In this document: in pieces, positions 5,999 through 10,745 of the stretch | Layout of the letters: every line of letters begins with the position of its first letter | Position numbering within the stretch: position 1 is the first letter of the stretch | Source of the DNA: Syntrophomonadaceae bacterium | GTDB taxonomy: Bacteria > Bacillota > Dethiobacteria > DTU022 | Length of the DNA: 34,772 nt | Reading direction: 5' to 3' | Assembly (NCBI GenBank): GCA_007132095.1 | Contig: SLPH01000047.1 | Location: 1-34,772 of the forward strand | Notes under the pieces: generated by a model | Told to the model about the DNA's origin: nothing | Seen by the model: the letters and a program-made list of their open reading frames with translations, nothing else | Database searches by the model: none | Translations under genes and position numbers: made by a program

Positions 5999-6832
5999 AT
6001 GCACCATCAAAGATTACTGGCCGCTGCCAGGGCCGCCCGTTCCAGGGCATATGCCCCTTATTCCGGTTTCCGGGTCGGCGCTGCCCTGCTTACAGACAGA
6101 GGCAGCATCTATACAGGAGCTAATATTGAAAACTCTTCATACGGCTTGACTATCTGTGCTGAAAGAGTTGCCCTTTTTTCGGCTGTTCATGCCGGTATTA
6201 GAAGCTTCAAGGGTTTAACCGTCGTTACCGACACCACCCCTCCTTCGAGCCCCTGCGGCGCCTGCAGGCAGGTATTGCTGGAATTGGCGGGCGATATTGA
6301 AGTAGTCATGGCAAATATGCAGGGTGACCAGTTTACCCGTTCCGCCCTGGAACTCTTGCCCCATCCATTTGGTCCTCAAGCCGCCCTCAAAGATTGGGAT
6401 AAGGGCCTGGAAACCCCGGACAATGAAGCCTGGAGAATGCCTGTTTCTTACAACCCGATCGGCTATGTCCGGAACAGTTTTTCTTCAACTGCAGAAATCC
6501 CCTCACGTTATAAGGAACTGCTGTCGGAAGTGGTCCTTGATCCGGTTTATACACAGGGGCTTTATCGTCTTGACGAAGAGGAAAGAATAGTGATTTTCTC
6601 TCATTTGCATAGCTCCGAAGGGTTTAATTTGAAAGGCGAACGCAGTGGAAGGGGAGGAGAAGTGTATGGAGTATTCTCCTGTCGCACTCCTTTTCGGCCC
6701 AACCCGCTGGCCCAAACAGTCGTAGAACTGGTCGGTATAGATAATAATATCCTCACGGTCAGGGGACTGGATTTAATCAATGGCACTCCCGTTTTGGATA
6801 TAAAGACTGATTACGACAGGTTGAAAGGATAA
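5999..6832 (+). CDS. cdd: Cytidine deaminase fused to TrmO/TsaA-like (tRNA methyltransferase family) domain
   Basis: N-terminal cytidine deaminase motifs 'YSGFRVGAAL', 'CAERVALF', 'SPCGACRQV'; C-terminal TsaA/TrmO motifs 'NPIGYVRNSF', 'GVFSCRTPFRPNPLAQTVVEL', 'VRGLDLINGTPVLDIK'; one continuous frame. Confidence 0.9.
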   Translation: MHHQRLLAAARAARSRAYAPYSGFRVGAALLTDRGSIYTGANIENSSYGLTICAERVALFSAVHAGIRSFKGLTVVTDTTPPSSPCGACRQVLLELAGDIEVVMANMQGDQFTRSALELLPHPFGPQAALKDWDKGLETPDNEAWRMPVSYNPIGYVRNSFSSTAEIPSRYKELLSEVVLDPVYTQGLYRLDEEERIVIFSHLHSSEGFNLKGERSGRGGEVYGVFSCRTPFRPNPLAQTVVELVGIDNNILTVRGLDLINGTPVLDIKTDYDRLKG

Positions 6833-7774: not shown

Positions 7775-8506
7775 ATGGCGGGACGAAACTTTAAAGCAAT
7801 AGGCCTGGTGCTGCGCAGCAGGATCCTGGGCGAATCCGATCGTCTCATTACAGTTCTCACACCGGATCGGGGCAAGTTTGAAGCTGTCGCCCGCGGGGCC
7901 CGCAAAACAAAGAGCAAGCTGGCTGCAGGGGTCGACCTGTTCACGCACGGATCTTTTGACTTTTACAGCGGTAAAACCTGGCCTGTTCTAACCGGTCAGG
8001 ATGTAATAGAGCATTTTTCTTGCTTCCGTGAAGACTATACCTGTTACCCCTACGGCCTTTACCTGGCCGAGCTTGTTGATCGCCTGGTTTCGGGAGAGGA
8101 ATCCAACCCGGAAATATTTAACCTGCTGCTTGATGGATGGAAGCTGCTGGGAGAGAACCTGGACAGGGCTCTTTTATGCCGTGCCTTCGAGCTGAAGCTG
8201 GCTCACGCGGCAGGTTACAGCCCGCATCTCGATGCATGTACAGGGTGCGGTATGACGGGTAACGGGGCTTTCAGCCCCAGGCAGGGCGGGCTTGTCTGTT
8301 CCGAATGCCGGGGGATCGACTTGATCAGGCTCGATCCCGGAACCCTTGCCCTGGCCAAACATTTGCTCCAGATGCCGCTGGCCTCCAGCCGCAAAGTCCG
8401 TTCGACTAACGCTCAGAAAGATCAACTGCGCAGGGTAAATACAGCTTTTCTGGCTTATCATCCTGAGCTGGGCGACATTAAAACCAGGAAACTGCTGGAT
8501 GAGTAG
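7775..8506 (+). CDS. recO: DNA repair protein RecO
   Basis: N-terminal OB fold 'GLVLRSRILGESDRLITVLTPDRGK'; zinc motif 'CTGCG...GGLVCSEC'; follows era. Confidence 0.95.
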   Translation: MAGRNFKAIGLVLRSRILGESDRLITVLTPDRGKFEAVARGARKTKSKLAAGVDLFTHGSFDFYSGKTWPVLTGQDVIEHFSCFREDYTCYPYGLYLAELVDRLVSGEESNPEIFNLLLDGWKLLGENLDRALLCRAFELKLAHAAGYSPHLDACTGCGMTGNGAFSPRQGGLVCSECRGIDLIRLDPGTLALAKHLLQMPLASSRKVRSTNAQKDQLRRVNTAFLAYHPELGDIKTRKLLDE

Positions 8507-8627
8507 CCCGTCTTTTCGCCCGGCCTGCTCCCGGGGTTTGTGGGGTTGCGTATAAGCCTGGCGCTTTTAAAAAACAGCGATCCAATATTTTTGATTAATA
8601 CTACAGCAGTCTGGGGAGGTGACCCCG

Positions 8628-10094
8628 GTGAAGACGCCCGGAACTGAAGGCCGCAGCGGAGTGGGATTTCAGATCAATGCCCTGTCGGAAGAATCGATTG
8701 ATCGGATTCATGAAGCCACCCTTGAGGTGATGAACAAAACAGGTCTCAGGGTTTACAGCGATCTGGCGCTTGACATATACCACGGTGGAGGTTGTTTTGT
8801 AGACCGGGCCGCAAAGACAGTTTTTTTCCCTGCCGAAGTCGTCGAATCCTGTATCAAAAGGGCTCCGGAAGAAGTCTTGCTTGCCGCTCGCGACGAGAGC
8901 TTTGATTACCTGGCCGGAGGAAGAAGGGTCGGTTTCTGTAATTTTAGCTGCGGTGTCCAGGTGGTTGATCTTGAAAGCGGTTCTGTCCGCGATTCCACCC
9001 TGCAGGATTCTGCTGATGTAGCCAGGCTGGTCGATTACCTGGATCAGTACGACATTTTGGACTGTCCTGTCATCCCCCGCGACGTTAATCCGGCCCTCTT
9101 CTCGCTGTATAACTACGAGATAATGGTCTCAAATACTGTCAAACACTGTAGCACTGCGCCGCAGAGTTACCGCCATGCCGAACTTATGATCGATATGGCA
9201 GCCGCGATTATCGGGAGCAGGGAGGAGTTAAAAAAGAGGCCGATCATCTCGGCCGATGTTTGCCCCCAGAGCCCGCTATCCCTGGCCCGGGAAACCTGCG
9301 AAACCATAATTGTTTATGCCAGACACGGTATTCCTGTTAATGTGCTTTCCATGGCCCTGGCAGGCGGTACTGCGCCCGTTACCCTGGCCGGAACGCTTGT
9401 CACTCATAATGCTGAAGTTTTAGCCGGAATCTGTCTCAGCCAGCTGGCAAAACCGGGGGCACCCAATTTTTACGGCAGTTCATCGACGATCATGGAAATG
9501 CGCCGCGGCACCGCCGCCGTGGGCTGCCCGGAAATGGCCATGATCAGCGCTTGTGTTACGGCGATGGCAAGGCGTTACGGTATCCCCAGTTTTCTGGCCG
9601 GTTCATAGACTGATAGCAAGCTGGGCGATCTCCAGGCCGGTCATGAGCGTACTCTTACCATTATGGCTGCAGCGTTGGCAGGTGCCAACATGATTTACGG
9701 CCCCGGTATGGTGGAGCAGGGAATGACCATGGACTACGGCCTGCTGGTCGCTGATAACGAATTTGTCCGCATGGTCAAACGATTGCTGGTAGGGGTACCT
9801 GTTAATACTGATACCCTGGCTGTTGGTTTAATCAGGGAGGTTGGTATTGGGGGAGAATTTGTTACCCACCAGCACACGTTTAACCATTTCAAAGAAAACC
9901 AGGTTCAAGTCACCATGGTTGATCGAAACACAAGGGGTGCCTGGCTATCCGAAGGAGGCCTCGATATGCACAGCCGTTGCAACGAAGAAGCAAGAAAAAT
10001 CCTGGCTTCGCATCAATGTCTTCCTTTAGATGAGCAAACCAAAAGGGATCTGCGCAAGATTATTCTTCTGGCAGAGAAAGAATTTGCTACCTGA
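8628..10094 (+). CDS. mttB: Trimethylamine methyltransferase (MttB) family protein with putative pyrrolysine at in-frame amber codon 9606-9608
   Basis: ORFs 8619-9608 and 9663-10094 are in the same frame. Translation through TAG gives '...RYGIPSFLAGS[TAG]TDSKLGDLQAGHERTLTIMAAALAGANMIYGPGMVEQGMTMDYGLL...', continuous MttB family sequence. SD GGGGAGG at 8613-8619 favours GTG start at 8628. Confidence 0.88.
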
Positions 10095-10265: not shown

Positions 10266-10745
10266 ATGAAAATTGGCATCATATTTTACTCTCTTTCAGG
10301 CAACACCAGGCAGGTTGCAGAAAAAATTGAGAAAAATCTTTCTGCTGCAGGCCACACTGTTTCGCTGGAAGAAATCCGGATTTCCGGCGACACGCCGGCC
10401 CAGGCCGGAAAGTTTAAGCTGGAACACGTTCCATCCGTTGAAGAATTTGAGGCCCTGATCCTGGGATCCCCTGTGCAGGCCTTCAGCCTTAACCCGGTCA
10501 TGAAAGCCTATCTTGATACCATGCCTTCTTTAAAAGGCAAAAAGGTTGCTCTTTTTGTTACCAAGCATTTGCCCATGCTCTGGCTTGGCGGCACCGGGGC
10601 GATCGGAATTATGAAGAAAGCTTGCGAAAAGAAAGAAGCCCGGGTGGTGGGAACAGAAATAGTCGTCTGGTCCGGTAAACACCGTTCGCGATCAATAAAG
10701 AATTGCGAAGACAGCGTCAGCCGCCTGTTCTCTCCTTCGAACTGA
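10266..10745 (+). CDS. Flavodoxin-like protein
   Basis: N-terminal FMN-binding signature 'IGIIFYSLSGNTRQVAEKI'; 'LILGSPV' strand. Confidence 0.82.
   Translation: MKIGIIFYSLSGNTRQVAEKIEKNLSAAGHTVSLEEIRISGDTPAQAGKFKLEHVPSVEEFEALILGSPVQAFSLNPVMKAYLDTMPSLKGKKVALFVTKHLPMLWLGGTGAIGIMKKACEKKEARVVGTEIVVWSGKHRSRSIKNCEDSVSRLFSPSN

Follow-up and report, generated by a model that had tools for sequence, protein, structure and literature searches.

Pyrrolysine (Pyl) encoded by an in-frame TAG and Pyl-containing bacterial trimethylamine methyltransferases (MttB) have both long been known. In the structure of MttB from Methanosarcina barkeri, a cis peptide was found at Gly110-Thr111, with its carbonyl holding a water at the Pyl imine and with Thr111 contacting the corrinoid; Gly110 was reported to be 100% conserved in 66 Pyl-MttB sequences, a regularity and not a formal criterion of membership (PMC9842639). 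The presence of a cognate corrinoid gene nearby is likewise usual for Pyl-MttB without being a formal criterion. Among bacteria, the dichloromethane-fermenting Peptococcaceae DCMF has 23 Pyl methyltransferases among 96 (PMC6778437). What is new at the locus described here is a clade of these enzymes that stands alone in its genomes and carries Ser-Cys at the place of Gly110-Thr111.

The window, i.e., the whole stretch of DNA analyzed (34,772 nucleotides), corresponds to contig 49 in a draft assembly of 2.16 Mb and 220 contigs (97.2% complete and 4.9% contaminated). The features of interest in it are the following:

7775 to 8506, forward strand: recO, the upstream neighbor (context only)
8613 to 8622, forward strand: ribosome-binding site of mttB, GGGGAGGTGA, five bases before the GTG at 8628
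8628 to 10094, forward strand: mttB-type gene, 488 amino acids with Pyl327 (from its frame and the TIGR02369, PF06253, and 7XCL matches)
8946 to 8951, forward strand: codons AGC TGC of Ser107-Cys108, aligned with Gly110-Thr111 of M. barkeri MttB
9606 to 9608, forward strand: in-frame TAG read as pyrrolysine, equivalent to Pyl334 of M. barkeri MttB (from the 7XCL alignment and a TAG in 11 of 11 orthologues)
9606 to 9705, forward strand: match to Rfam PYLIS_3 (mttB), 62.3 bits, a sequence match only
10266 to 10745, forward strand: flavodoxin-like gene, the downstream neighbor

A single open frame runs from the GTG at 8628 to the TGA at 10092-10094, free of frameshifts and with the TAG at 9606-9608 as its sole internal stop. 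An earlier note, made from the letters alone, had described two listed ORFs as one frame split only by this codon; re-reading the frame (8628-10094) confirmed it, and a gene caller would list two fragments, as the note expected. The start at 8628 is better than that at 8619, since the latter sits within the ribosome-binding site. When read through, the product has 488 amino acids, with the amber residue at position 327. It matched TIGR02369, the NCBIfam model for Pyl-containing MttB, with 635.9 bits (residues 14-483 on model positions 1-469 of 469), above the equivalog cut-off of 525 bits, and Pfam MTTB (PF06253) with 324.4 bits (residues 16-480). The proposed identity as a Pyl-MttB stood. Among solved structures, 7XCL/7XCM (M. 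barkeri MttB) matched best (residues 13-486, E ~1e-107), and the non-Pyl MtgB structure 2QNE scored 239 bits. Residue 327 aligns with the position given as unknown in 7XCL, namely Pyl334, which places the TAG exactly on the Pyl site, as had been suggested from its position before a T/S-D-S-K element. The equivalents of Met249, Tyr364 (here Tyr357), and Gly372 are all kept, and both domain and structure matches continue unbroken across the two sides of the TAG. The apparently split gene is almost certainly one enzyme with a stop codon read as pyrrolysine.

The earlier note reasoned that decoding would depend on genes elsewhere and asked for a genome search. Other contigs of this genome carry the full set, with PylS split:

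C137:5-814, with the 3' part at C153:1-405: pylC, split over two contigs (310 bits)
C137:882-1604: pylSc (321.8 bits)
L019:1775-1846, reverse strand: pylT, between pylSn and pylSc, GGGGGGTGGATCGTATTGATCACACGGACTCTAAATCCGTGCAGCCGGGCGAAACCCCCGGACTCCCCGCCA
C137:1916-2176: pylSn (128.6 bits)
C153:550-1365: pylD (225.8 bits)
C153:1480-2511: pylB (474.4 bits)

Contigs C137 and C153 overlap by 121 identical bp, and therefore pylSn-pylT-pylSc-pylC-pylD lie in a single series on the same strand, with pylB pointing towards them. The tRNA-Pyl gene was not reported by ARAGORN; it was located by eye, and its fold is that of a tRNA-Pyl: the anticodon stem has six pairs, its loop carries CUA, and the 3' CCA is encoded. 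Since all these genes are present, an objection based on a genome devoid of pyl genes fails. Mis-binning of the pyl contigs was considered, and the co-occurrence of TAG-containing mttB and pylSn in relatives (see below) argues against it; in composition, pyl contigs and window showed no clear separation (GC 0.475-0.496, tetranucleotide correlations 0.86-0.93).

The same genome has ten MttB-family genes, three of them (the window copy and two others) with a single in-frame TAG, as well as two TAG-containing mtbB genes, both above the model cut-off. Contig C137 carries a Pyl dimethylamine methyltransferase (mtbB; TIGR02368, 526.9 bits versus a cut-off of 369.1), a TAG-mttB, two corrinoid proteins, a methyltetrahydrofolate:corrinoid methyltransferase-like protein, and a betaine/carnitine-type transporter, while the second TAG-mtbB lies with a TAG-mttB on C116. 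It is the C137 copy that best matches canonical MttB in this genome (about 747-749.6 bits versus about 633-635.9 for the window protein). The window itself was correctly said to hold no corrinoid-protein gene; such genes were found on C137, C195, and C112, and the enzyme could therefore be served in trans. The genome's MttC proteins are encoded at L019:11469-12110 and L019:12249-12884.

Judging from sequence, the window gene very probably encodes a Pyl MttB-family methyltransferase, decoded through the pyl set of its genome, that most likely demethylates trimethylamine with a corrinoid protein made elsewhere and supplied in trans. The UAG codon 327 would be decoded by tRNA-Pyl through its CUA anticodon. 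PylBCD would make the Pyl and the split PylSc/PylSn synthetase would attach it to the tRNA, the genes for all of these lying elsewhere in the genome. As judged from homologous enzymes, a tertiary methylamine, with trimethylamine the most likely one, would bind to the Pyl imine, which would present one methyl to Co(I) in an MttC/MtbC-type corrinoid protein acting in trans from C137; the methyltetrahydrofolate:corrinoid methyltransferase could then hand this methyl on to the folate pool. The sequences show the frame, the TAG with its conservation and the selection on both sides of it, and the genes for decoding, corrinoid proteins, and methyl acceptor; how efficiently the UAG is decoded, which substrate the enzyme uses, and which protein is its partner are what we infer here.

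When 71 MttB-family proteins were placed on a tree, the window protein grouped with nine orthologues in a single clade (support 100/100), and a further Pyl clade was its sister (99/98). Three changes of the Pyl state were needed on this tree, which fits a single origin of Pyl and two losses, one lineage having gone to Leu and another to Ile/Met. Leu, Ile, or Met replaces Pyl in close relatives of Pyl-MttB (L025:7772-9322, L022:4268-5824, L101:9336-10850, and L107-L109), several of which share genomes with Pyl copies. The TIGR02369 score alone is no proof of Pyl, because most of these relatives also exceed the cut-off. All 10 clade sequences covering the site have Ser-Cys at the place of Gly110-Thr111, so that Gly110, as Ser107, is not conserved in the window protein. 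A few other Pyl-MttB have Ala, Cys, or Ser at the Gly110 position as well (L082-L084, L038, L167, and L168). Outside the family, the closest relative (G207, 614 bits) has Ser-Lys at the pair and sits in a mtbB(TAG)-mttC-mttB(TAG) run, from which we conclude that the clade lineage probably derives from an ordinary methylamine operon.

These data bear on a different reading, in which the protein contains Pyl but is not a trimethylamine enzyme, the Ser-Cys clade now acting on a different methylated amine or putting the same chemistry to a housekeeping or regulatory use. It is consistent with a clade of its own and the Ser-Cys pair fixed in it, with the presence of two more canonical Pyl-MttB copies in the genome, and with the neighborhood: neither mttC nor mtbB was found beside any of the 11 clade loci (flanks of ca. 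2-8 kb, some one-sided), whereas 24 of 28 other Pyl-mttB loci have one or the other. However, the score exceeds the trimethylamine equivalog cut-off, the Pyl, Met249, and Tyr364 equivalents are kept, and the closest relative outside the family, which also has Ser there, lies in a mtbB-mttC-mttB operon. The substrate may differ from trimethylamine, and we consider a shift of this kind unlikely but worth keeping in mind. A more specific form of the idea, a functionally distinct Pyl enzyme with the same chemistry, an imine pocket rebuilt with Ser-Cys for Gly-Thr, and a substrate other than trimethylamine, expressed apart from methylamine operons and, in several genera, out of the era-recO-glyQS cluster of housekeeping genes, seems to us rather doubtful.

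The gene was followed across 100 related genomes, the window's own included. TAG-mttB was found in 16 and pylSn in 20, with both in 15; thus, pylSn was present in 15 of 16 genomes with TAG-mttB versus 5 of 84 without (Fisher P ~1e-12). The exception, G012 (L086 and L078), is a 93% complete draft with TAG-mttB and TAG-mtbB where pylSn was not found, while G024, G029, G056, G057, and G061 have pylSn but no TAG-mttB listed above the model cut-off. Two complete pyl cassettes, L176 (C104) and L177 (C134), each with pylT, pylSc, pylSn, pylB, pylC, and pylD, appeared in G015; their PylSc are 60% identical, and mis-binning is possible in this genome (86% complete and 4% contaminated). G023 likewise has two pylSn. 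Among the relatives' named assemblies are several Bacillota MAGs, of which two carry CSSed soda-lake series names and are listed as Syntrophomonadaceae; soda-lake MAGs filed as Syntrophomonadaceae had 16S sequences 86-95% identical to uncultured Dethiobacter relatives (PMC6146748).

Orthologues of the window gene were identified in ten genomes (G002, G005, G007, G008, G012, G014, G020, G021, G023, and G027). In the window and in G005, G020, G021 (from recO), G023, and G027 (towards glyQ), mttB is in or near the era-recO-glyQ-glyS cluster, and in several genomes the flavodoxin gene comes after it. In G002, G007, and G014, this cluster has the flavodoxin gene and no mttB, the orthologue being elsewhere, and relatives without pyl genes (G003, G017, G019, and G025) have recO-flavodoxin-glyQ without mttB there, not a version with a sense codon. 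A role for flavodoxin as a partner (electron donor in corrinoid reactivation) was rejected: it is resident between recO and glyQ also in these seven genomes without mttB there, and is therefore probably unrelated. Glycine cleavage genes downstream (gcvPA/gcvPB) were discarded as a pathway link, as they also adjoin the flavodoxin gene in G002, where mttB is elsewhere. Promoter and terminator matches near the window gene were no more than expected by chance. Also in the window, one open frame at 5999-6832 joins a cytidine deaminase domain and a TrmO-type tRNA methyltransferase domain, and an equally long open frame occupies this place in relatives.

The TAG was kept in 11 of 11 orthologues, window included. 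A codon alignment of nine sequences (window included) had a single column that was TAG throughout, and the two further, partial orthologues also have TAG; the amber codon is therefore not due to chance. The values of pN/pS for the nine were 0.148 before the TAG and 0.169 after it, and truncation is ruled out because selection persists after the codon. The window copy is the faster-evolving one, with 73% identity to its orthologues versus 84-96% among them, an extra divergence that exceeds the differences in glyQ, glyS, and ppdk. This divergence, and the use of TAG as a stop elsewhere in the genome, are what could be said for a nonsense mutation or a decaying pseudogene. However, with the TAG shared by every orthologue, equal purifying selection after it, no other stop or frameshift, and a complete pyl set, we regard decay as very improbable; a nonsense mutation is practically excluded here and already refuted for the clade. 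A gene caller would list two separate genes, an MttB cut short at 326 residues and a C-terminal protein with its own start at 9663, but both parts share one frame and are spanned by one family domain, and the 18 codons between the TAG and the ATG at 9663 show no break in conservation, leaving this option even less credible. An error in sequencing or assembly that made TAG out of a sense codon, conceivable for a draft in 220 contigs, is refuted by the TAG at the same codon in independent assemblies of other species, and its probability is close to nil.

In the nine contig stretches sampled for stop-codon use, 24 of 96 long open frames end in TAG, ca. five of these being Pyl codons, so TAG still serves as an ordinary stop in about one fifth of the sample, with recO and rpoD among these genes. 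UAG decoding must therefore compete with termination, and some termination at 9606 is likely. As for a structural signal after the UAG, the PYLIS_3 segment folds no better than shuffled sequences (z-score 0.78) and no consensus fold was obtained over 40 family sequences in that region, so this candidate was dropped, in agreement with the lack of a common structure in the mttB region described before (PMC3639795).

For a mostly uncultured Bacillota family, the practical consequence is that it seems to lack a methylamine enzyme that it has, because gene callers split such genes. The part for specialists is the stand-alone clade with its changed active-site pair. Since Gly110 has been described as invariant, the clade would be, if Ser-Cys alters the chemistry, a natural test of which residues are needed around pyrrolysine.

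Compared with known systems, the window enzyme shares with M. barkeri MttB (PDB 7XCL/7XCM/7XCN; PMC9842639) the position of Pyl and the Met249, Tyr364, and Gly372 equivalents, but it has Ser107-Cys108 for Gly110-Thr111, a bacterial split PylS, and no adjacent mttC, and its methyl group probably goes to tetrahydrofolate instead of coenzyme M. DCMF (PMC6778437) and the Desulfobacula-like Deltaproteobacteria (PMC8318568) belong to bacterial lineages different from that of the window, with the same enzyme family, in-frame TAG, and genomic pyl genes, and methyl entry into the Wood-Ljungdahl pathway was proposed for both; the deltaproteobacterial enzyme has a cognate corrinoid gene nearby, whereas the window clade does not. 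The non-Pyl MttB superfamily, represented by the glycine betaine methyltransferase MtgB (PDB 2QNE), belongs to the same family but lacks Pyl, while the window protein clears the Pyl equivalog cut-off by a wide margin.
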